From a virus: a stretch of 40,069 nucleotides of DNA. Every line of letters begins with the position of its first letter. The stretch's first letter is position 1. The notes beneath the pieces were generated by a model, which saw only the letters and a list, made by a program, of their open reading frames with translations, was not told where the DNA came from and searched no databases. This document shows positions 5,320 to 39,472 of the stretch, one piece after another. The DNA lies in the IMG/VR virus record IMGVR_UViG_3300039206_000080, positions 1-40,069 of that record. One strand, written 5' to 3'. The position numbers and the translations under genes are program-made.

Positions 5320-6147
5320 TTAAGCTCCAATTGCTGCATAGTTTACGACCATGTAACCGTCTCGTGTCGATACGTGTTCTGGATGGGTCGCTAGCACTTC
5401 ATGAGCCATAACGCCTTCGCTGTCACCCTTTAACCCCAGCGCCTCTGCTGCCTTGTTCCACGTCCACGAATACCATTTATGCCCGCTGCGCTCGCCTTGG
5501 GCTTGCACGTTCGTTTTTAGGCGAGGGTCGGAGAATGCCAACCCAGCGGCACCAAGCCCTGCGGTCAACAATCCGCCCAATCCAGCTTGTTGAGCCTGTG
5601 CACCTGCGACTTGACCTTGCGCGAGAGTTTGAGCCGACCCCATAACACCTTGACCTAAAGTTTGGCCAACCCCGCTAATACCGCTGGCAATTTGAGAGGC
5701 GTTAGAAGGCAGCGAGGCCAGCCCTTGAAGACCGGAAAGAGACTGCATTAAGGCTTGGTTTTCTAAGTCGCCAGAGTAGCGAGCTAGTGCGTCCTGCGTA
5801 TTGCCAGAGCGCAGCCCACCTGTCATAGCTTGGTTGCGTAGAATAGCATCCTCACCAGCGGCGCGCTGACTTGTAATGGCGCCATACATAGGGCTTGATC
5901 TAAGGCTAGCTAGCGCTTGATCCCCGCTGACATCGCCAATGCCGTACAGTCCGCCAATCTGACCTAGCGCGGACTCTCGGAACTGCTGAGGCAAAGCTTC
6001 GCGCTCTTTGAGATAGTCAAGCGCTGCCATTTGCGCATCGGCCTGAATCTGTGCGCCAGCCTCAATACCTTCCGCTTGGCCTGCTGCGGCTCGATTTGAC
6101 GCCTTAGCCGCCTTTGATCCCGTCAGTGTACGTACAAAACCGCCCAT
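5320..6147 (-). CDS. DNA ejection protein, gp7-like, with S74/chaperone-like C-terminus
   Basis: This 275-residue protein is the first of the ejection trio. Residues about 1-205 are Ala/Gly/Gln/Ser-rich and helical, as in P22 gp7 (229 residues). At about 208 the sequence changes to SDPRLKTNVQ, followed by GVMAHEV, HPEHV and MVVNYAAIGA. These are the conserved blocks of the peptidase S74 / intramolecular-chaperone domain of phage fibres, in shortened form. The Ser-Lys pair of SDxRLK is present. In fibres this domain trimerises the protein and cuts itself off; whether the short form acts here is unknown. The gene overlaps its upstream neighbour by one base. Confidence 0.8.
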   Translation of the reverse strand: MGGFVRTLTGSKAAKASNRAAAGQAEGIEAGAQIQADAQMAALDYLKEREALPQQFRESALGQIGGLYGIGDVSGDQALASLRSSPMYGAITSQRAAGEDAILRNQAMTGGLRSGNTQDALARYSGDLENQALMQSLSGLQGLASLPSNASQIASGISGVGQTLGQGVMGSAQTLAQGQVAGAQAQQAGLGGLLTAGLGAAGLAFSDPRLKTNVQAQGERSGHKWYSWTWNKAAEALGLKGDSEGVMAHEVLATHPEHVSTRDGYMVVNYAAIGA

Positions 6148-25503: not shown

Positions 25504-25977
25504 TCACGAAAACGCCAGTATTGAATTTACCCATCTATCAATATCCTCGCGTGAACTGTCCTTGAATATATGTTTTAGCACAGCGTTGATAATATCGCTA
25601 TACACTCGCTGAAATTCTGTCTCTTCCATTGCGCCGAACGAAATAGATTTAGCTTCGGCCCTAACCTCACCTTTAAAATTAGTCACTAAGTCATAATGCC
25701 CCGCCATGATCGTTAAATCCTTTCGGAATCGGTCAAAGTTTGTCGCTACCGGCGCCCCCCTATATTCAGCCTCTGGCTTTTCCCATGCCTCAAACGCAAC
25801 TTGGAATAGTGCAAACGCCTTGCGGTGAAATGCTATGTTTCTCGGTTTAGTCAGTACCGCCTTGTATGATTGCCCGTATTGCAGCGACTCGCACGCCACC
25901 TCGCTAGACGGATCAACGATAAATCCGCCCGTGGTCTTTGTAATAATTAGCTCAGTTGCCACAATTAGCCGCTCCAT
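25504..25977 (-). CDS. DUF1367-family phage protein
   Basis: The product has up to 157 residues. Residues about 43-72, LTKPRNIAFHRKAFALFQVAFEAW, carry the RN-x-x-FHRKxFAL signature of DUF1367 proteins, which occur near nin genes in lambdoid phages. Function is unproven. The ATG at 25977 lies inside the 3' end of the HNH gene. A GTG at 25962 has GGAG nine bases upstream and matches better where relatives begin (about 152 residues). Confidence 0.82.
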   Translation of the reverse strand: MERLIVATELIITKTTGGFIVDPSSEVACESLQYGQSYKAVLTKPRNIAFHRKAFALFQVAFEAWEKPEAEYRGAPVATNFDRFRKDLTIMAGHYDLVTNFKGEVRAEAKSISFGAMEETEFQRVYSDIINAVLKHIFKDSSREDIDRWVNSILAFS

Positions 25978-26470
25978 GATTTGGATGGAATCCGTATTTC
26001 TTTTGTGCCGCCATCCTTGCGACTATAGCTTCATCTTTATCGTCAAAACAACCTATATGAATTATCTTACCTTTGACTTTAATTCTAGCCAGCCAAGAAC
26101 CCTTTCCGCTATTTTTGCTTTTATCCCACGACACGCCAGAGCAGCCGCTTTTGTTATTTGAGTGAAGCGAATGGTTCCATCCATTGCCTAATGGGGTTAC
26201 AACTCGCAAATTGCTTATAACATTATTAGTCCTATTGTGATCTATGTGATCAATATCACCGCTAGGCCACTCACCATAATGCAAAAACCAAGCGGCCCTA
26301 TGGCATCTATAATTTCGGCCATTAAAATACAGTGACTGATAACCTTTTTCGGTTAAAGATCCAGCCTCGTCCCCCGCTTTTACTCGACCTCGATCCTTGC
26401 GCCAAAATATCTTCCCGCTTTCTGGATCGTAGCGCAACGCATCATTAAAAACTTCAAATTCACTCTTCAT
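25952..26470 (-). CDS. HNH homing endonuclease with AP2-like DNA-binding domain
   Basis: The 172-residue protein starts at ATG 26470 with AGAGG at about six bases. Residues about 60-100 hold the HNH motif (HRAAWFLHYGEWPSGDIDHI, then DHNRTNNVISNLRVVT). Residues about 115-165 (GCSGVSWDKSKNSGKGSWLA, IGCFDDKDEAIVARMAAQK) are an AP2-like DNA-binding fold. This is a typical free-standing homing endonuclease. It lies directly after dnaB, between replication genes, and its 3' end overlaps the DUF1367 gene. It probably cuts allelic DNA at this place in phages without the insertion. Confidence 0.9.
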   Translation of the reverse strand: MKSEFEVFNDALRYDPESGKIFWRKDRGRVKAGDEAGSLTEKGYQSLYFNGRNYRCHRAAWFLHYGEWPSGDIDHIDHNRTNNVISNLRVVTPLGNGWNHSLHSNNKSGCSGVSWDKSKNSGKGSWLARIKVKGKIIHIGCFDDKDEAIVARMAAQKKYGFHPNHGAANCGN

Positions 26471-26480
26471 CCTAAACCTC

Positions 26481-28889
26481 TTAATAATCAAAGTCTGTTT
26501 TTTTACTAGCCATTGGCGGTGGTGGCTCATATCCGTAAGCCAGATTTTCAAACTTAGAACAATCAAGCCGCGTTACCAGTCTATCGGTGCCAATCTCGCC
26601 GCCTCTGTGCTTGGTGGTGATAATCTCAGCAATACCCTTTTCATTGCTGTTTTCGTTGTATACCTCATCGCGATAGATAAACATGATAATGTCTGCATCC
26701 TGCTCAATCTCGCCAGAGTCGCGAAGGTCAGCGTTTACAGGCCGCTTGTTTGGCCGCTTTTCAACTTCTCGGCTTAACTGTGACAATGCCATTACCGGAC
26801 AATCTAACTCTTTGGCAAGCCCCTTTAAGCCCCTTGATATACTGCCCACCTGCTCTGTTCTGCTGTTGCCATCCCCGCGAATTAATTGCAGGTAATCAAC
26901 AACGATCAGCCCTAGCTTTTCCTTTCGGTTGATACGCCTAGCCGCTGCCGCTATCTGATTGATATGCATACCAGCGCGGTCTAGTACGTGAATCTTGCGG
27001 TCTTTCATTTTAGCTACGGCACCAGACAGCCTTGGCCAGTCCTCGCCCTCTAGCGTTCCTTTCTTGATCCGGTCAAACTTAATCCCCGATACGCTCGATA
27101 CCATTTTGTCATATAGCTGATTGCGTGACATTTCCAAGCTGAATATCAATACCGGCTTACCCTCTGTAATCGCGGCAGTTTCCGCCATATTGAGCGCCAG
27201 AGTGGTGTTATGCGTAACTAAATAACCATCCGTCAAGTATAAATGGCTAGGGTGGCTAACCATAATGCACTGTGCTGGCTCGTTGCCGACAAACTCAATG
27301 GATGTAATTGTTGGGTTTGCGCTGCTTTTCCTCGAGCTCATGTTGTCAAGTAACCTTGGCGATTGAATAAAATCACCAATCCCGTCCAGCGCCACAGACA
27401 CGATATAAGCTGGCCGCCCTGTTTTCATATCTCCCTTGTAAAAATACTTAGGCTCACTTTTAACCCGCTTGCGCGCCGACCCGCCAAGCGACTGAACCAA
27501 CCGGATTACCCCATCACTTAGATCCTCTGAGCTCGAGGAAAACTGTACAGAGTTATTCTGTACCCATCCATCGCTTTCTAGCAACCCAGCTAGCACAGCC
27601 TGCCTAGTTACTTTGTCGCGTGAAAACACTACTTCAGGAATGAACTTCTCGTGAGCCAGTTTTCCCATAACACCCAAAGCCTTGAGCTTTTCACGTATTG
27701 GGTTTGGGGTTCCTCCTAGCGCATGGAATATGTTGTGCTCGTTTCCGTTTGCGCTGCTATGAACTTTAAGCCCAGATTCGAGCTCCACACGATCAATAAT
27801 GTACTGTTCTGGGTTTGAAAACCTAACGCCAGCATTGGTAAGGCATCCATCGCCAAGCAAAAAACCCAGCAGCCACCCGCTCATATCAAGCGTGCCGAAT
27901 CCAACTTTTCCGTTATGCCCTGCCAGTCTTATCCGGTTAGCAAACCTAACCTTGGTGAGCTTTTCCTTTAATTCTAAAGTTGTCATTACTCGAGGTTCTT
28001 TCCATCGACTGCTTTCGACATTCCATAAATGGCTTTCATCAGCCTTTACTATCCTGCCGTCTGACATGGTGAGCCGATAGATTGGCCGATCGCCTTGAGG
28101 ATATACACCCGTAACTATAGACAATCCACCATCGATAGACGCCACGGCCTGTCCATATCTGATTTTCCCCATCAAAACCTTGCTACCGTCAGCCATTACT
28201 ATCTCAGAATCCAATGGCTGAGCCTTACCCATTGCAGGGCGCGCCGCTAGTATAATCAAGTCAGGCCCATGTAGTCCGTGGAACCGTTCGTCTAGCGCCT
28301 TAAAGCCAGTCGGCAGCCCAAACGATGTGCCGTTGGTGAACCTGTCATCTAGCGCCGCGACCCAGTTTTTTAATACCTCGTTATTGGTTAGCTCGGCCTC
28401 TTCGCTGCTCTCGCCTATCGTCATCACTGATTGCTGGGCGCTGGCGATCTTTTCGTCTATGGTCATGTCCTTGTCATAGCCAAAGCCCATTATTGCCGTG
28501 CCTGCGGCTATAACAGCCCTCTCCTGCGCTTTAAGCTTGACAGCCTTGGCGTACCCCTTGGTATTGGTTGCGCTAGGGGTATTCATGGCAATCTCTGCGA
28601 CGTATGCAATACCACCAATCTCGTCAAGATCTGGAATAGACTCGCAAACTGTAACAAGGTCAACACCGTCGCCAGCTGAATAAACCTTGTGGATAGCTTC
28701 GTAAATAATCCGGTGTTTAGGTGCAAAAAAGTCGCTAGTCTGTATTAGCTCACTTACTTCATCGATCAACCGAGAGTCGATCATTAGGCCACCTAGTACA
28801 GCCTGCTCTGCCTGCTGCGAGTGTGGCGGTAAATTAAGTCCGCTCATGCTCTGCATGTCTTCGTACATATCCAAGTTATAGCCTCCCAC
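26481..28889 (-). CDS. dnaB: DnaB-type replicative helicase containing an intein
   Basis: The frame has 802 codons; without the 339-residue intein the helicase is about 463 residues, the normal length. The N-terminal domain has LPPHSQQAEQAVLGGLM. RecA-core motifs are ARPAMGK|TTLALN (Walker A, split by the intein), VLIFSLEMS, LGLIVVDYLQL (Walker B), MALSQLSREVEKR and DLRDSGEIEQDADI. It unwinds phage DNA and likely works with the replication protein encoded upstream. GTG 28889 opens the frame, but GGGAGG at 28881-28886 favours TTG 28874 or ATG 28868. Residue numbers here count from 28889. Confidence 0.93.
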   Translation of the reverse strand: MGGYNLDMYEDMQSMSGLNLPPHSQQAEQAVLGGLMIDSRLIDEVSELIQTSDFFAPKHRIIYEAIHKVYSAGDGVDLVTVCESIPDLDEIGGIAYVAEIAMNTPSATNTKGYAKAVKLKAQERAVIAAGTAIMGFGYDKDMTIDEKIASAQQSVMTIGESSEEAELTNNEVLKNWVAALDDRFTNGTSFGLPTGFKALDERFHGLHGPDLIILAARPAMGKAQPLDSEIVMADGSKVLMGKIRYGQAVASIDGGLSIVTGVYPQGDRPIYRLTMSDGRIVKADESHLWNVESSRWKEPRVMTTLELKEKLTKVRFANRIRLAGHNGKVGFGTLDMSGWLLGFLLGDGCLTNAGVRFSNPEQYIIDRVELESGLKVHSSANGNEHNIFHALGGTPNPIREKLKALGVMGKLAHEKFIPEVVFSRDKVTRQAVLAGLLESDGWVQNNSVQFSSSSEDLSDGVIRLVQSLGGSARKRVKSEPKYFYKGDMKTGRPAYIVSVALDGIGDFIQSPRLLDNMSSRKSSANPTITSIEFVGNEPAQCIMVSHPSHLYLTDGYLVTHNTTLALNMAETAAITEGKPVLIFSLEMSRNQLYDKMVSSVSGIKFDRIKKGTLEGEDWPRLSGAVAKMKDRKIHVLDRAGMHINQIAAAARRINRKEKLGLIVVDYLQLIRGDGNSRTEQVGSISRGLKGLAKELDCPVMALSQLSREVEKRPNKRPVNADLRDSGEIEQDADIIMFIYRDEVYNENSNEKGIAEIITTKHRGGEIGTDRLVTRLDCSKFENLAYGYEPPPPMASKKTDFDY
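27207..28223 (-). mobile_element. Intein with LAGLIDADG endonuclease in DnaB Walker A (class 3-like)
   Basis: Residues 223-561 of the frame are an intein between GK and TT of the P-loop. It begins with Ala, not Cys or Ser, and ends THN with Thr at +1. Block B has H65 and W67 (HLW), block F has C319 (QCIMV), block G has T337-H338-N339, all in intein numbering. Ala1 with the W-C-T triplet defines class 3 inteins, which start splicing at the block F Cys rather than residue 1. Blocks C and E (LLGFLLGDG and VLAGLLESDG) give the two LAGLIDADG motifs with their Asp residues intact, so both splicing and homing look active. Confidence 0.92.
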
Positions 28890-31519: not shown

Positions 31520-32007
31520 CAGCGTTACGGGTAATATCAGAGCAATACAGAGGCTTGCTAGACTTAGCCAAAACCGACGACCTGCCAATTGAGGCGATTA
31601 AAGATACCTTGGACGGTATCGAGGGGGAGTTTAACGATAAAGCATTAAAGATTGTCGATGTAATATCCAGCGTTGAGGGTGATATCGCTCAGATTGACGC
31701 AGAGATTGACCGGCTAACAGCGCGCAAAAAGACTATCGTGAACCGAAACCAGTCAATACGCGACTACCTGCAAAATAATATGGAGGCTTGCGGGATTACC
31801 AAGATTGAATGCCCACTGTTCACTATTACGTTAGCAGCGGGCCGCGATATTGTCGTTATTGATAACGAGGACGAATTGCCAGACGAATACATAGCCGTTA
31901 AAACATCGACGGCACCCGACAAGAAAGAGTTATTGAAAGCACTAAAAATCGGCGCTGTAGCAGGCGCTCATATTGAAAAAAGTAAGTCATCATTGAGGAT
32001 TAAGTAA
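31516..32007 (+). CDS. Gp157-family protein
   Basis: The 163-residue protein has an N-terminal helical part with a coiled coil (about 40-85: SSVEGDIAQIDAEIDRLTAR, KKTIVNRNQSIRDYLQNNM), then MEACGITKIECPLFTITLAA and a C-terminal EYIAVKTSTAPDKKELLKAL ending in KSKSSLRIK. This is the signature of Siphovirus Gp157, which is found beside annealases and SSB and has been linked to phage resistance. The start overlaps the annealase stop (ATGA). Confidence 0.9.
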   Translation: MTALRVISEQYRGLLDLAKTDDLPIEAIKDTLDGIEGEFNDKALKIVDVISSVEGDIAQIDAEIDRLTARKKTIVNRNQSIRDYLQNNMEACGITKIECPLFTITLAAGRDIVVIDNEDELPDEYIAVKTSTAPDKKELLKALKIGAVAGAHIEKSKSSLRIK

Positions 32008-32318
32008 TGGCTAAAGTAGGCGTAAGTTTAAAGATTGACGTTTCCAAGATTGAAAAAGCTCGATTGTTCAAAGGCGAAAAAGGAACGTACCTTGACGCGA
32101 CAGTGTTTATCGACCTATCAGAACTTGACCAGTACGGCAACAGCGGCATGATCACCCAGGACGTTAGCAAAGATGAAAAGGATCAAGGCGTTAAGGGGCC
32201 GATACTGGGCAACTGCAAGGTGTTTTGGAGTGAAGGCGGGCAGTCGCAGCCAGCGCAGCAAAGGCAGGCATCGCCACCGCCGCAAGATTACGATACGGAT
32301 GATTCGATCCCATTCTAG
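32007..32318 (+). CDS. ssb: Single-stranded DNA-binding protein
   Basis: This 103-residue protein shows an OB-fold-like strand pattern (VGVSLKIDVSKI, KGTYLDATVFIDL) followed by a Gln/Pro linker and the acidic tail DYDTDDSIPF, the standard SSB C-terminal tip that recruits partner proteins. It overlaps the Gp157 stop codon by one base. It works with the annealase and helicase. Confidence 0.85.
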   Translation: MAKVGVSLKIDVSKIEKARLFKGEKGTYLDATVFIDLSELDQYGNSGMITQDVSKDEKDQGVKGPILGNCKVFWSEGGQSQPAQQRQASPPPQDYDTDDSIPF

Positions 32319-32342
32319 CAAGGCATTAAAACCGCCTTTAAT

Positions 32343-32456
32343 ATAACCACAAAGTCTTTCCCCCGTCGTGCGGCGGGGTGATAGAGTTGTGGTGTGTGAG
32401 GGGTTAAGCATTAGCTTATTTGCGAGTGAAGCGAATCAATTGAAGCGCCTTGTTAT
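32343..32456. repeat. attC-like palindromic segment 1
   Basis: ATAAC (32343-32347) and GTTAT (32452-32456) bound a 114-base imperfect palindrome. Inside are ACCACAA/TTGTGGT (32346-32352/32387-32393) and a CCCCGTC/GGCGGGG hairpin (32361-32367/32372-32378). It occupies the gap between ssb and the next gene. The layout (short R-type arms at both ends, nested stems) recalls integron attC sites; the core GTTATGG departs from the consensus GTTRRRY. Confidence 0.35.
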
Positions 32457-32473
32457 GGCGCGTGGAGAGAAGA

Positions 32474-32782
32474 ATGGATAACAAAACGTGGCGCGAAGAC
32501 CAGAAGCACCTGCCGGACATTATGCGAGACTTTCATGACTGCAAAGACCTATTCAAGACGATAGATCAATACATAGTTTGCGAGGACGGCCACCCCGCAG
32601 AAAAAGTAAGCTGGGTTCAGGGCCACTGCTACACAGTAGATGTTTTTCTATGGTTTATGGCACAGCACGGGTACACGCTACAGAAATCGCGAGCAAAGGT
32701 TGAATTTGACGACTTGGGCGAAAGGTTGCGACTAGCTCGCAAAGAGCGTAGCAACGCATTCGCGAAGCTGTTAGCGCCATAA
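32474..32782 (+). CDS. Hypothetical protein in first cassette-like unit
   Basis: The 102-residue protein starts at ATG 32474 after GGAGAGAAGA. It is basic and mostly helical (DIMRDFHDCKDLFKTIDQYI, LGERLRLARKERSNAFAKLL). Its stop codon lies inside the CATAAC arm of the next palindrome, as integron cassette genes often do. No family recognised. Confidence 0.65.
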   Translation: MDNKTWREDQKHLPDIMRDFHDCKDLFKTIDQYIVCEDGHPAEKVSWVQGHCYTVDVFLWFMAQHGYTLQKSRAKVEFDDLGERLRLARKERSNAFAKLLAP

Positions 32783-32844
32783 CCCCAAGCTCACTGCGCG
32801 AACGAAGCGCCAGCGTAGTGAGTCCAGCGCAGATTTTTGTTATG
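32778..32844. repeat. attC-like palindromic segment 2
   Basis: CATAAC (32778-32783) and GTTATG (32839-32844) bound a 67-base element with inner stems CTCACT/AGTGAG (32790-32795/32817-32822) and GCGC/GCGC. A competing perfect 11-bp inverted repeat (AGTCCAGCGCA 32821-32831, TGCGCTGGACT 32843-32853) overlaps the right side. It is the clearest of the three attC-like elements in length and symmetry. Confidence 0.42.
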
Positions 32845-32890
32845 CGCTGGACTTTAAATAGGCGCTCAACTTTGTAAGAGGTAAAACCTT

Positions 32891-33043
32891 ATGAGTATTG
32901 ATGTGAAAGAACAGATCGACATTTTGAAAAAGAAAGCCAGTGAATCAGAAAAGTCCGAAGATGCTCTTCGCTTTTCGCAAGCTGCTGTGAATCTGGCTAA
33001 TGCTAGAGCCGCAATGGTGAACACTGACAAACAGGAAAAGTAG
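32891..33043 (+). CDS. 50-residue helical protein in second cassette-like unit
   Basis: The frame from ATG 32891 to TAG 33043 encodes a charged, fully helical protein (MSIDVKEQIDILKKKASESE, DALRFSQAAVNLANARAAM), probably a short coiled coil. AAGAGGT precedes it. The gene alone fills the space between attC-like segments 2 and 3. Confidence 0.62.
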   Translation: MSIDVKEQIDILKKKASESEKSEDALRFSQAAVNLANARAAMVNTDKQEK

Positions 33044-33070
33044 TAACCAAGCCGCCCCAGAAATGGGGCG

Positions 33071-33119
33071 CATAACACCCAGTTAGCGAGCCGCTATGTC
33101 TCGCTCAACGATGGGTTAT
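33071..33119. repeat. attC-like palindromic segment 3
   Basis: CATAAC (33071-33076) and GTTAT (33115-33119) bound a 49-base imperfect palindrome. The inner arms GTTAGCGAG (33082-33090) and CTCGCTCAAC (33100-33109) pair with one extra C, an unpaired base like the extrahelical base of attC sites, though on the opposite arm from the classical arrangement. The palindrome GGTTATAACC lies at its right end. Confidence 0.38.
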
Positions 33120-33135
33120 AACCACGCCGATTGAT

Positions 33136-33150
33136 ATAGCTAAACGGTAT
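33136..33150 (+). repeat. 15-bp upstream repeat, copy 1
   Basis: ATAGCTAAACGGTAT occurs here and again at 36903-36917. In both places it is followed, 23 or 32 bases later, by a G-rich stretch leading into TGrTAGAkT (33171-33179; 36947-36955), which resembles an extended -10 box. The 9-base difference in spacing is near one helical turn. The pair looks like an activator site with promoter. Confidence 0.45.
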
Positions 33151-33207
33151 TTAGTGGGTGTGGCGGTTGGTGATAGAGTGGGTTTACTGATTAATGAGGG
33201 GAAGGGT

Positions 33208-33369
33208 ATGAGTAGGCCAGAGTGGATTGGCAAAGCAGTTGAGCAATATATGATGCACGGCGTAACAAGAGAAAGAGCCACGCTATGGGCTGAGTCTATT
33301 TTAAACAATGTTCCTGAATCTATAAATAACTGCCCATACATCACGGCAGAAATTGATTACCGATCATAA
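33208..33369 (+). CDS. Small hypothetical protein
   Basis: The product has 53 residues from ATG 33208 (MSRPEWIGKAVEQYMMHGVT), after GGGGAAGGG. It is helical with a short C-terminal part. A helix such as IGKAVEQYMMHGVTRERATLWAE split by Gly-Val suggests a small interaction motif. No family recognised. Confidence 0.62.
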   Translation: MSRPEWIGKAVEQYMMHGVTRERATLWAESILNNVPESINNCPYITAEIDYRS

Positions 33370-34562: not shown

Positions 34563-35362
34563 TGATGAAACACTATTGTAATAACGGAAAAGATGAAATA
34601 AAGGTAGGCGGGGTTTATGTATTCCGCAATTGCTACGAAACAAGAGTTATAGCTTGCGAGGAAATAGATGGCGATCACGTATTTTGTGGCTCTACATGTT
34701 ACACCATTGACCTCATAGCGCACGAACTCCCCCGCGACTCCGACGGCTACTATCTGTGGGAAGGTGGCGAGTGTCCGGTGCCGGAGGATTGGGCTGTTGA
34801 GGGCGAGTATCGCACTGGAGAGTATGCAACCGATCCGGCGATACTGTTTAAATGGAATGAGTTGAAGCGCTTCCGCGTAGTCAGCACAGGCGAAGAGGTT
34901 AAGCCAACCAGCAAACTAGGCTGGGAAACCGTCCCAGAGGTGCCGTATACGGGGGAGGGTTTGGAGTTTAACGAAGAGGCAAGCATGGCTGAAAAGTGGA
35001 GAAATATTGAGCATAAGCTAGAGCAAGACCCAAACGGCAAAGACCCGCACGAGTCAGGCGCCAAGCTTGACGCTGGAAAGAATCGGCTAGGGCTTGTTAT
35101 CGGAAGCTTTGCACGGGCATTGTCAAAGGTTGGCGAGGTCGGTACATACGGCGCGAACAAGTACACCGATAATGGCTGGTTAGATGTACCAAACGGTGAG
35201 GCTCGCTACACAGATGCGTTATACCGGCATTTATTCAGCGAGGCTAAGGGCGAGGTTAACGACAAAGATACCGACTTGCCACACGCGGCACACGCGGCTT
35301 GGAATGCTTTGGCGCGGCTTGAGTTGGCTTTAATCGAAGAAGAGCGGAAGGGGGTGAAGTGA
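34562..35362 (+). CDS. dATP/dGTP diphosphohydrolase-like two-domain protein
   Basis: In this 266-residue protein residues about 60-120 (SDGYYLWEGGECPVPEDWAV, FRVVSTGEE) match a small phage domain with a W-x-G-G-E-C-P motif. Residues about 165-260 carry GAKLDAGKNRLGLVIGSFAR, VGEVGTYGANKYTDNGW, RYTDALYRHLFSEAKGE and LPHAAHAAWNALARLEL, the signature of the domain annotated as dATP/dGTP diphosphohydrolase N-terminal. The conserved H-A-A-H and E/D residues suggest metal-dependent nucleotide hydrolysis, shaping the dNTP pool during replication. GGGGAGG precedes ATG 34562. Confidence 0.75.
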   Translation: MMKHYCNNGKDEIKVGGVYVFRNCYETRVIACEEIDGDHVFCGSTCYTIDLIAHELPRDSDGYYLWEGGECPVPEDWAVEGEYRTGEYATDPAILFKWNELKRFRVVSTGEEVKPTSKLGWETVPEVPYTGEGLEFNEEASMAEKWRNIEHKLEQDPNGKDPHESGAKLDAGKNRLGLVIGSFARALSKVGEVGTYGANKYTDNGWLDVPNGEARYTDALYRHLFSEAKGEVNDKDTDLPHAAHAAWNALARLELALIEEERKGVK

Positions 35363-37853: not shown

Positions 37854-38031
37854 GCAATGCGCAAGGTGTGGCCAGCACAACATTTGGCCGGACTTGCAGT
37901 GCGTGTGCGATGTGTGCGGCGAAGTAACCTGTATCGGATGTAAGTGGAAGCATGAAGACTGTAGAGACGACGAAGCATTGCCCGAAGTGCACGAATCCCA
38001 ATCTGGGACTAATCCGCAGCCAGAATATTAA
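37834..38031 (+). CDS. Cys-rich small protein
   Basis: The 65-residue product from ATG 37834 overlaps the Lar-like gene by 20 bases. CARCGQHNIWPDLQCVCDVC and CIGCKWKHEDC give seven or eight zinc ligands, enough for two zinc sites. Its C-terminal third is polar and overlaps, in another frame, the following zinc-ribbon gene by 80 bases. Possibly only one of the two is translated well. Confidence 0.5.
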   Translation: MESPKARQCARCGQHNIWPDLQCVCDVCGEVTCIGCKWKHEDCRDDEALPEVHESQSGTNPQPEY

Positions 38032-38098
38032 GGTTTGCTCTGACTGCAATTTGATAATTAACTGGTACTTGGACGAAGGCCAGAAGGAGTTGAAATGA
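37952..38098 (+). CDS. 48-residue zinc-ribbon protein
   Basis: ATG 37952 to TGA 38098. HCPKCTNPNLGLIRSQNIKV plus CSDCNLIINWYLDEGQ is a standard C4 zinc ribbon, and the ending W-Y-L-D-E-G-Q-K-E-L is typical of small phage zinc-ribbon proteins. The stop overlaps the next start (ATGA). The gene shares 80 bases with the preceding frame. Confidence 0.65.
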   Translation: MKTVETTKHCPKCTNPNLGLIRSQNIKVCSDCNLIINWYLDEGQKELK

Positions 38099-38367
38099 GT
38101 GAAGCAATAAAGGGTTGGCTATGCTCTAAATGTGGCCCACTGCATTACGATGAAGTTGACGCGGTAGACCAAACAATAGGCTGCACGAGATGCGGCGGCG
38201 TGATGTGGAGTGATGACGATATAACTATTTCACCCCTCTACACAACCGACCACGCCGAGGAGCTGGCGAAGGCTTTGGAGTATGTGGTTGCATCATCATG
38301 CCTGAATAACGAGGTAGCCGATGGCGCTATTAAAGCCATAACCAACTACCGCGAGGCGACGAAATGA
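38095..38367 (+). CDS. Zinc-ribbon early protein (paralogue of 33834-34265)
   Basis: This 90-residue protein opens with the ribbon: LCSKCGPLHYDEVDAVDQTI, GCTRCGGVMWSDDDIT and LYTTD, nearly the same as in the gene at 33834. The C-terminal helix (AEELAKALEYVVASSCLNNE) is unrelated to the partner domains there. Shared ribbon with swapped flanks indicates duplication and domain shuffling within this genome or import from a relative. Confidence 0.68.
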   Translation: MSEAIKGWLCSKCGPLHYDEVDAVDQTIGCTRCGGVMWSDDDITISPLYTTDHAEELAKALEYVVASSCLNNEVADGAIKAITNYREATK

Positions 38368-38603
38368 GCCAGTGCCAATTTATAGAGTCCCGCCTAAGCG
38401 AGGATTGCGGATGCCCAGAGCAGGACTGGGTAATTAACGGCATATACACTACCATCCACCTAGAAGAAGACGGGGGCGGCCACATACTTTTAACTGATGA
38501 TGGTGGCGACGGGCCGGAGAAGCTAACACCTTGCGACGGAATAGGCGACCTACTTGAAAAGGCGAAGGACTGGATTGCAACACTTACTATTGAGGGCGAA
38601 TAA
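38364..38603 (+). CDS. Acidic small protein
   Basis: The 79-residue, strongly acidic protein (Asp/Glu/Gly-rich, IHLEEDGGGHILLTDDGGDG) has four Cys in the first and last thirds. ATGA overlap with the upstream gene. Such charge is typical of DNA-mimic or host-protein inhibitors, but no family is recognised. Confidence 0.6.
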   Translation: MSQCQFIESRLSEDCGCPEQDWVINGIYTTIHLEEDGGGHILLTDDGGDGPEKLTPCDGIGDLLEKAKDWIATLTIEGE

Positions 38604-38604
38604 A

Positions 38605-38901
38605 ATGAACCACTACCCCAGAATAAAAGGCTATCAAGACGTACCCGCAAACCGCCCGCAGAAAGAGTCCGAGAGGGCGTCTATTTCAGCGCAGGTTGAA
38701 GAGTATCTCCGTAGCGGTGGCGTCATATCAAGCGTCGAGCATGGCGCTACAGGGGATGGGTTTAAGGCTAAGCGGTTAAGGTCTGAGGTAGATGATGCAA
38801 CTAAGAAGATCGTATTTAACAACGGGGAGCGTAATGCAGACCTTACAACAAAGAACCCACGAACAAAAATGACGGGTCATAAAACTTTCTACAGAGAATA
38901 A
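38605..38901 (+). CDS. Hypothetical protein
   Basis: The product has 98 residues from ATG 38605; the longer frame begins inside the previous gene. ISAQVEEYLRSGGVISSVEH is a helix followed by GxGxG-like turns, then a basic region (KAKRLRSEVDDATKKIVFNN). No family recognised. TAAA of the upstream stop almost touches the start. Confidence 0.6.
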   Translation: MNHYPRIKGYQDVPANRPQKESERASISAQVEEYLRSGGVISSVEHGATGDGFKAKRLRSEVDDATKKIVFNNGERNADLTTKNPRTKMTGHKTFYRE

Positions 38902-38917
38902 GCAAGGAGCTAAAGAA

Positions 38918-39118
38918 ATGGAAAACCATAGCGAATGGATTGATGTCGATTTACTGCGCCCAGATAACGACACTAATGTGATTGGCTGTTGTGATGATGA
39001 TGTTTTTGAATGCCACCATTATGACGATGGCGCCTTTTGTGACTGTGTTGGCGAGCCAATAACCGTAACCCACTGGATGCCGCTACCGGAACCGCCATGC
39101 ACTACACCAAACTCCTAG
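38918..39118 (+). CDS. DUF551-like small protein
   Basis: This 66-residue protein has SEWIDVDLLRPDNDTNVIGC at the start and ITVTHWMPLPEPP near the end, matching DUF551 (W-I-x-V... and THWMPLPEPP). The family is common in early or accessory regions of phages of Gammaproteobacteria and of unknown function. AAGGAG precedes the ATG. Confidence 0.82.
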   Translation: MENHSEWIDVDLLRPDNDTNVIGCCDDDVFECHHYDDGAFCDCVGEPITVTHWMPLPEPPCTTPNS

Positions 39119-39192
39119 CCCTAGAAACAGCCTTTTTCATAGGGCTGTACTATGGGCGGGAGCTTTATCACTGGTGGATATGGGCTTTTTAG
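39097..39192 (+). CDS. 31-residue membrane peptide
   Basis: ATG 39097 to TAG 39192, overlapping the DUF551 gene by 22 bases. MHYTKLLALETAFFIGLYYG then RELYHWWIWAF gives a short, aromatic-rich helix. It is the last plus-strand gene before the convergent lysis operon. Low certainty because no good RBS is visible. Confidence 0.42.
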   Translation: MHYTKLLALETAFFIGLYYGRELYHWWIWAF

Positions 39193-39229
39193 TCTACGCA
39201 ATGTTACCGATTACGTGTTGTTGTGTTGA

Positions 39230-39472
39230 CTATTTGGCCTTAGCTTTAAGGAAAAACGACACCAAGGCGATACCAGCCAACACAGCCTGCACTACCACGT
39301 ATTCCAAGCTATCAGGCGCAAGTCCCGCAGCATCAGGCCCAACCATAGCGCCAACCGCAGTAACAGCAGCCACGGCTGTGCTAGGTGCCTTTAAGTTCTC
39401 CTTTTTTAATGCGTCTTTTGCCTGCACCATCGCGGGCAATACTGCTAAAAGTTTCAATAGTAATGGAGCCAT
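39230..39472 (-). CDS. Putative holin-like membrane protein
   Basis: This 80-residue protein is the last gene of the late transcript. Two hydrophobic segments, at about 2-17 (APLLLKLLAVLPAMVQ) and 56-75 (EYVVVQAVLAGIALVSFFLK), flank a Lys-containing linker; a third weaker one lies at 32-50. It ends KAKAK, the basic C-terminus common to holins. GAGAGG precedes the ATG at 8 nt. The endolysin ends four bases upstream. Holin function is inferred from size, topology and place. Confidence 0.68.
   Translation of the reverse strand: MAPLLLKLLAVLPAMVQAKDALKKENLKAPSTAVAAVTAVGAMVGPDAAGLAPDSLEYVVVQAVLAGIALVSFFLKAKAK

Follow-up and report, generated by a model that had tools for sequence, protein, structure and literature searches.

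Putative attC arrays turned against their genes: a partly decayed example past ssb in a viral contig and better ones in unrelated phages

Both attC sites and CALINs, that is, groups of at least two attCs with no integrase, have been described in phages, and attCs of virulent phages were recombined with attI1 by IntI1 (Qi et al., 2023; PMC9892861). The phages in that study are TJE1, P12002L, PH101, Vibrio Va_90-11-286_p16 and Shewanella M16-3; the arrays of TJE1 and PH101 are of typical direction, and the attCs of P12002L point in divergent directions (PMC9892861). Here, we deal with a locus of a similar kind in an IMG/VR contig of 40,069 bases, the whole of which was analysed and is called the window hereafter. 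The window encodes a P22-like portal, and directly past its SSB-like gene an earlier note, made from the sequence alone, had pointed out three palindromes with ATAAC/GTTAT arms, which are indeed there, and took the small genes between them for promoterless cassettes captured by a phage. In our view this segment is quite probably a short, partly decayed CALIN of inverted polarity, and one case of a wider class of phage cassette arrays that would be exchanged by IntI. Its features, with the best limits of the three palindromes, are as follows.

32007 to 32318, plus strand: SSB-like gene (phrog_24909) with the C-terminus DDSIPF, directly before the array
32326 to 32408, plus strand: leader repeat copy 1, an imperfect direct repeat that includes GGTGATAGAGTTG and, at 32346-32392, a separate nested hairpin; abuts site 1
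32341 to 32458, minus strand: site 1, a decayed attC with an attC-like left half, CCATAAC-AAG-GCGCT-T-CAATTG (downward from 32458)
32474 to 32782, plus strand: ORF1, 102 aa, phrog_15705 (a phage family, function unknown); it ends with the TAA that belongs to the site 2 R' box
32777 to 32845, minus strand: site 2, an attC with R'' GCATAAC (32845-32839) and R' GTTATGG (32783-32777)
32822 to 32852, plus strand: perfect 10-bp hairpin GTCCAGCGCA/TGCGCTGGAC; its 11-nt loop includes TTTTT, and it shares bases with the R'' side of site 2
32891 to 33043, plus strand: ORF2, 50 aa
33070 to 33121, minus strand: site 3, TTATAAC-CCATC-GTT[G]AGCGAG-loop-CTCGCTAAC-TGGGT-GTTATGC, the best of the three
33116 to 33205, plus strand: leader repeat copy 2, upstream of ORF3, whose ribosome site and start it includes
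33211 to 33369, plus strand: ORF3, 52 aa, the first gene past the array

The SSB-like gene has no Pfam SSB match and 79 relatives in IMG/VR. After the ssb of these relatives, none of ORF1 to ORF4 occurs and the genes vary; the gene order of the window without palindromes, which the earlier note had named as a finding that would speak against it, was seen in none of the 79. The start of ORF1 was placed at ATG 32474 because TTG 32450 falls within site 1, and its stop codon (32780-32782) is part of the CATAAC arm of site 2, just as the note had said, while that of ORF2 (33043) is 27 nt ahead of site 3 and outside any box or arm. ORF1 gave no relatives in IMG/VR as a single-protein query, and ORF2 none in annotated phages. 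The family of ORF1 is present in other phages without attCs. In Vibrio and Pseudoalteromonas phages (L006-L008) its members are lone, moron-like genes on the strand opposite to adjacent structural or packaging genes.

An imperfect direct repeat, GGTGATAGAGT...TGAGGGG, is located on both sides of the array. The two copies align at 47 against a background of 22.4 +/- 4.5 (maximum 43 in 382 draws), and GGTGATAGAGTNG occurs twice where 0.10 occurrences are expected; this repeat may be a record of how the array got inserted. Elsewhere in the window, the DnaB helicase gene (26484-28889, minus strand) is split by an apparent intein with a LAGLIDADG/Hom_end domain at roughly residues 417-480. Directly after this gene comes one for a free HNH endonuclease (25955-26566).

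As a reference, 80 chromosomal integron loci were fetched via their IntI and yielded 137 attCs; the adjacent intI tells the direction of each. GTTAT is the commonest start of their R' box (after GTTA, T has a frequency of 0.51 and G of 0.35), so that the GTTATG core, which the earlier note had held against its own reading, is no objection. In local alignment to these attCs, with the chance level taken from 200 random viral draws, site 2 reaches 44 on the minus strand (background 24.5 +/- 2.9, 0 of 200) and 27 on the plus strand, and site 1 reaches 35 (26.2 +/- 2.7, 1 of 200) and 25, respectively; both resemble attCs on the minus strand only, their plus strands being at background. The resemblance of site 1 is confined to its 3' end, approximately 32410-32458, with a left-half score of 14.7 and an unrecognisable R' half. 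It is to be noted that site 1 was also considered as a single large palindrome, which was rejected; it is composite, the main hairpin (32346-32392) being distinct from the attC half. Sites 2 and 3 are compact. The exact 18-mer CATAACAAGGCGCTTCAA of site 1 recurs in attCs of L297 and L298, and the right half of site 2, AGCTTGGGGTTA, is common to a viral-contig attC in L210.

Site 3 behaves in another way. Its plain sequence alignment is at chance on both strands (28, 14 of 200), and on the minus strand it has an extrahelical G in L'' after three pairs and 5-nt spacers on both sides, the same build as L298 424-474. The earlier note had noticed this single unpaired base and supposed it to be on the wrong arm; it appears so because the attCs point against the genes, and it takes the expected L'' position when the minus strand of the site is read. 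As single-stranded DNA, site 3 folds better than shuffles (z -3.5 minus, -2.6 plus), and the fold energy of site 2 is unexceptional (z -0.9 to -1.5). What makes site 3 attC-like is its structure; for sites 1 and 2 it is mainly the sequence.

The covariance-model check proposed in the earlier note gave a divided answer. A strict model (R1) of 52 chromosomal attCs, with strong pair covariation, gives real attCs 20-45 bits and rejects the three window sites at under 9 bits. R1 also rejected L064, a 37-kb contig with ssb and ERF in common with the window, where a site is one missing base off the class 1 consensus. Because of these rejections a broader model (R2) was built from 34 viral-contig and 12 chromosomal attCs, with the window, L064 and L298 excluded from training; it gives the functional attC region of TJE1 24-35 bits. 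With R2, site 3 on the minus strand is the top match in 40 kb at 21.3 bits (E 0.0057, covariance E-values being rough) against 12.6 bits on the plus strand. Site 2 obtains a weak 16.1 bits on the minus strand with default filters and is missing from the list with filters off, perhaps due to the hit-length limit of that mode, and site 1 is not found. Over 670 kb of ssb-related viral DNA, the sites of L064 take ranks 1-2, site 3 is third and site 2 sixth. Directly past the ssb of L064, the order is gene, attC, gene, attC, gene, palindrome; its two attCs, both minus, score 36.1 bits (a rough E of 1.4e-5) and 23.4 bits in R2, and the former, at 5739-5810, is the one that lacks a base of the class 1 consensus.

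Alignment and R2 taken together indicate that the palindromes are derived from attCs, and each unit holds one gene, as had been claimed. In the window two attCs can be recognised, of which one is weak, besides a decayed third, and a TIGR02249 search of its contig gave no match to an integron integrase, also as claimed; such a composition would probably make it a CALIN. A complete integron would have attI and intI, for the latter of which that search gave no match, and an integron gene cassette is a gene with an attC of the same direction, opposite to the arrangement found here.

How far does such an arrangement extend beyond relatives by ssb? Unrelated contigs were reached via the 18-mer of site 1 and two looser patterns. 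These are metagenomic contigs of about 40 kb with simple gene calls, a limitation where GC is high, and a single metagenome is the source of three of the best arrays. In them attCs alternate with single small genes: 11 in G037, six each in G038 and G035, five in L377 and three in G033, and L300 is also arranged in this way. Since they carry hallmark genes, G033, G035 and G037 (TerL), G038 (portal, major head protein, tape measure protein and DnaB) and L377 (Gp2.5-like SSB and exonuclease, with an attC directly past the SSB gene) are phages; a Terminase_6N search in L300 gave no match. The window is a weak member of the class, which G037 and G038 exemplify better. Apart from this, an NTP pyrophosphohydrolase family (phrog_4856) provides a cassette gene in L386 (2770-3057) and L377 (604-942), two unrelated phages, the products being 38% identical.

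G038 has its own intI at 38395-39360 (422.8 bits, cut-off 265), approximately 300 bp past the last attC. Relative to this intI the attCs are directed as in ordinary integrons, and the genes alone are turned, running towards intI; the intI-side junction falls between CACATAAC and AGG, at the expected place of attI. The cassette that adjoins this intI (38015-38350) is 95.2% identical over 336 bp to a cassette in G037 (34920-35254), and the identity starts and stops in R' boxes, the flanks being unrelated. In the G038 copy (L380 18015-18350) the R'' box (GTTATG) includes the ATG, and the next R' box follows just after the stop, with hardly any spare bases. Similarly, G033 and L305 have flanks that are 93% and 87% alike and different cassettes inside, with breakpoints at R' boxes. 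On sequence grounds, the exchange of whole cassettes at R' boxes and the presence of intI beside one array therefore appear well established in these phages, IntI being the agent that we infer for it; no exchange involving the window phage itself was seen.

The integrase of G038 has one clear phage relative, in L390 (48%), and one weak match. IntI-like integrases are located in L390 (7947-8963) and L392 (4680-5678), each amid same-strand genes, and no attC array was detected around that of L390. The phage IntIs were considered as one clade, but their grouping is weak, with long branches in the IntI tree, and no such claim is made. Of 369 genomes from a single bacterial class, 61 have related chromosomal IntIs with E below 1e-95, and the best match there to the IntI of G038 is 54% identical. 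Since related chromosomal IntIs are so frequent in this class, supply of IntI in trans is plausible.

The polarity was evaluated on 41 hits of the model, from G033, G035, G037, G038, L377, L300, L064, L378 and the window; contigs had been chosen by attC sequence, gene direction not being a criterion. The TAA of the R' box ends an opposite-strand ORF in 31 hits, a same-strand ORF in none, both in two and neither in eight, versus 2 opposite and 54 same in the chromosomal attCs. Among 126 distinct viral-contig attCs there are 51 opposite and 16 same (Fisher 1e-17 against chromosomal), and in viral contigs under 52% GC 26 and 4. A first count on viral contigs, based on ORFs, was unsafe at high GC and was replaced by this exact-stop test. 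Inversion is common but not universal, since the isolate phage TJE1 is forward and a few viral contigs (L201, L282) are forward or mixed. By these counts, inverted polarity spans unrelated phages.

From these observations, the following mechanism can be proposed. Phage genes on the plus strand alternate with attCs whose R''-to-R' direction is minus, and in the wider class the stop of a gene is the TAA in the R' box of the next site, so that the genes run against the direction of the attCs and with phage early transcription, which would read through the array. IntI, whether it came from the host or a co-infecting phage or, as in some phages, was encoded by the phage itself, would act on the folded attC strand, here the plus strand of the phage, and would insert, remove and swap whole gene units between phages. 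The phage of the window would use an IntI from elsewhere or recombine no longer; its sites may be still working, and the genes presumably help the phage. It is about an even chance that phages run an integron-like system of their own, with inverted single-gene arrays that are transcribed early and exchanged at R' boxes by phage or host IntI, apart from the bacterial cassette pool. The two pools would be kept apart because a cassette moved to a host integron faces away from the promoter.

Could the cassettes simply be ordinary bacterial ones, captured by phages in the normal direction? The attC homology, the single-gene units and the stop in the CATAAC arm would all be expected then, and the published arrays of TJE1 and PH101 show that phage CALINs can be typically oriented (PMC9892861). 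However, the attCs are opposite to the genes in the window, in L064 and in six further phage contigs (G033, G035, G037, G038, L300 and L377), ORF1 belongs to a phage gene family, and 74 phage cassette ORFs (tblastn) and the array DNA found no match in 82 integron loci. We therefore regard ordinary capture as quite unlikely, and of the earlier proposal the attC-derived single-gene units stand while ordinary bacterial cassettes of the usual orientation gain no support. Alternatively, the hairpins might be RNA elements, such as terminators or processing or translation signals, that became attC-like by convergence with no involvement of an integrase. They do sit between genes in the early mRNA, site 3 beats shuffles in folding, and the box often gives the stop codon and in one shared cassette the start codon as well. 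Nevertheless, no terminator was called at the three window palindromes, an Rfam scan over their region gave no family, the attC homology is at the level of sequence and specific in direction, cassettes break in R' boxes and one array adjoins intI, all of which makes convergence of RNA elements improbable.

It might be also that real attC arrays exist only in the other phages and that the palindromes of the window are due to unrelated chance, as the failure of the strict model, the sub-canonical matches and the incomplete site 1 could suggest. Yet three sites within 800 bp share one direction, alternate with genes and occupy the same place past ssb as in L064, random draws reach the score of site 2 in 0 and of site 1 in 1 of 200, and site 3 tops the 40 kb; there is little probability left for chance. 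The inverted-polarity CALIN is thus the reading that we prefer for the window.

If it is right, precise swaps of single small early genes between unrelated phages, genes that are often called morons and whose function is unknown, would be explained, together with a source of gene turnover beside replication genes. It would also provide a route for phage-to-phage gene exchange, and mobile phage genes could be listed by cutting at R' boxes. The inverted polarity, moreover, could keep the cassettes of phage and host integrons as separate pools. Such arrays resemble phage morons as far as small accessory genes, phrog_15705 for instance, are singly inserted in many phages; morons, unlike the genes of the arrays, have no bounding attC sites, and we know of no site-specific exchange for them. 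The sedentary chromosomal integrons found in Vibrio, Shewanella, Marinomonas and relatives have attCs of the same build (R''-spacer-L'' with an extrahelical base, L', spacer, R'), but they have an integrase and the polarity of 54 to 2 given above, and their junctions are nearly always TAACAA...CGTTA; at phage sites GGGTTA or GTGTTA is frequent. In the open-access literature we found no report of inverted-polarity attC arrays, so that the inverted polarity of whole phage arrays would be new, while phage attCs and CALINs are already known. The published phage CALINs are indeed alike in that attCs and small genes are found in phage genomes with no integrase; those of TJE1 and PH101 have the typical direction, whereas here whole arrays are inverted against their genes.
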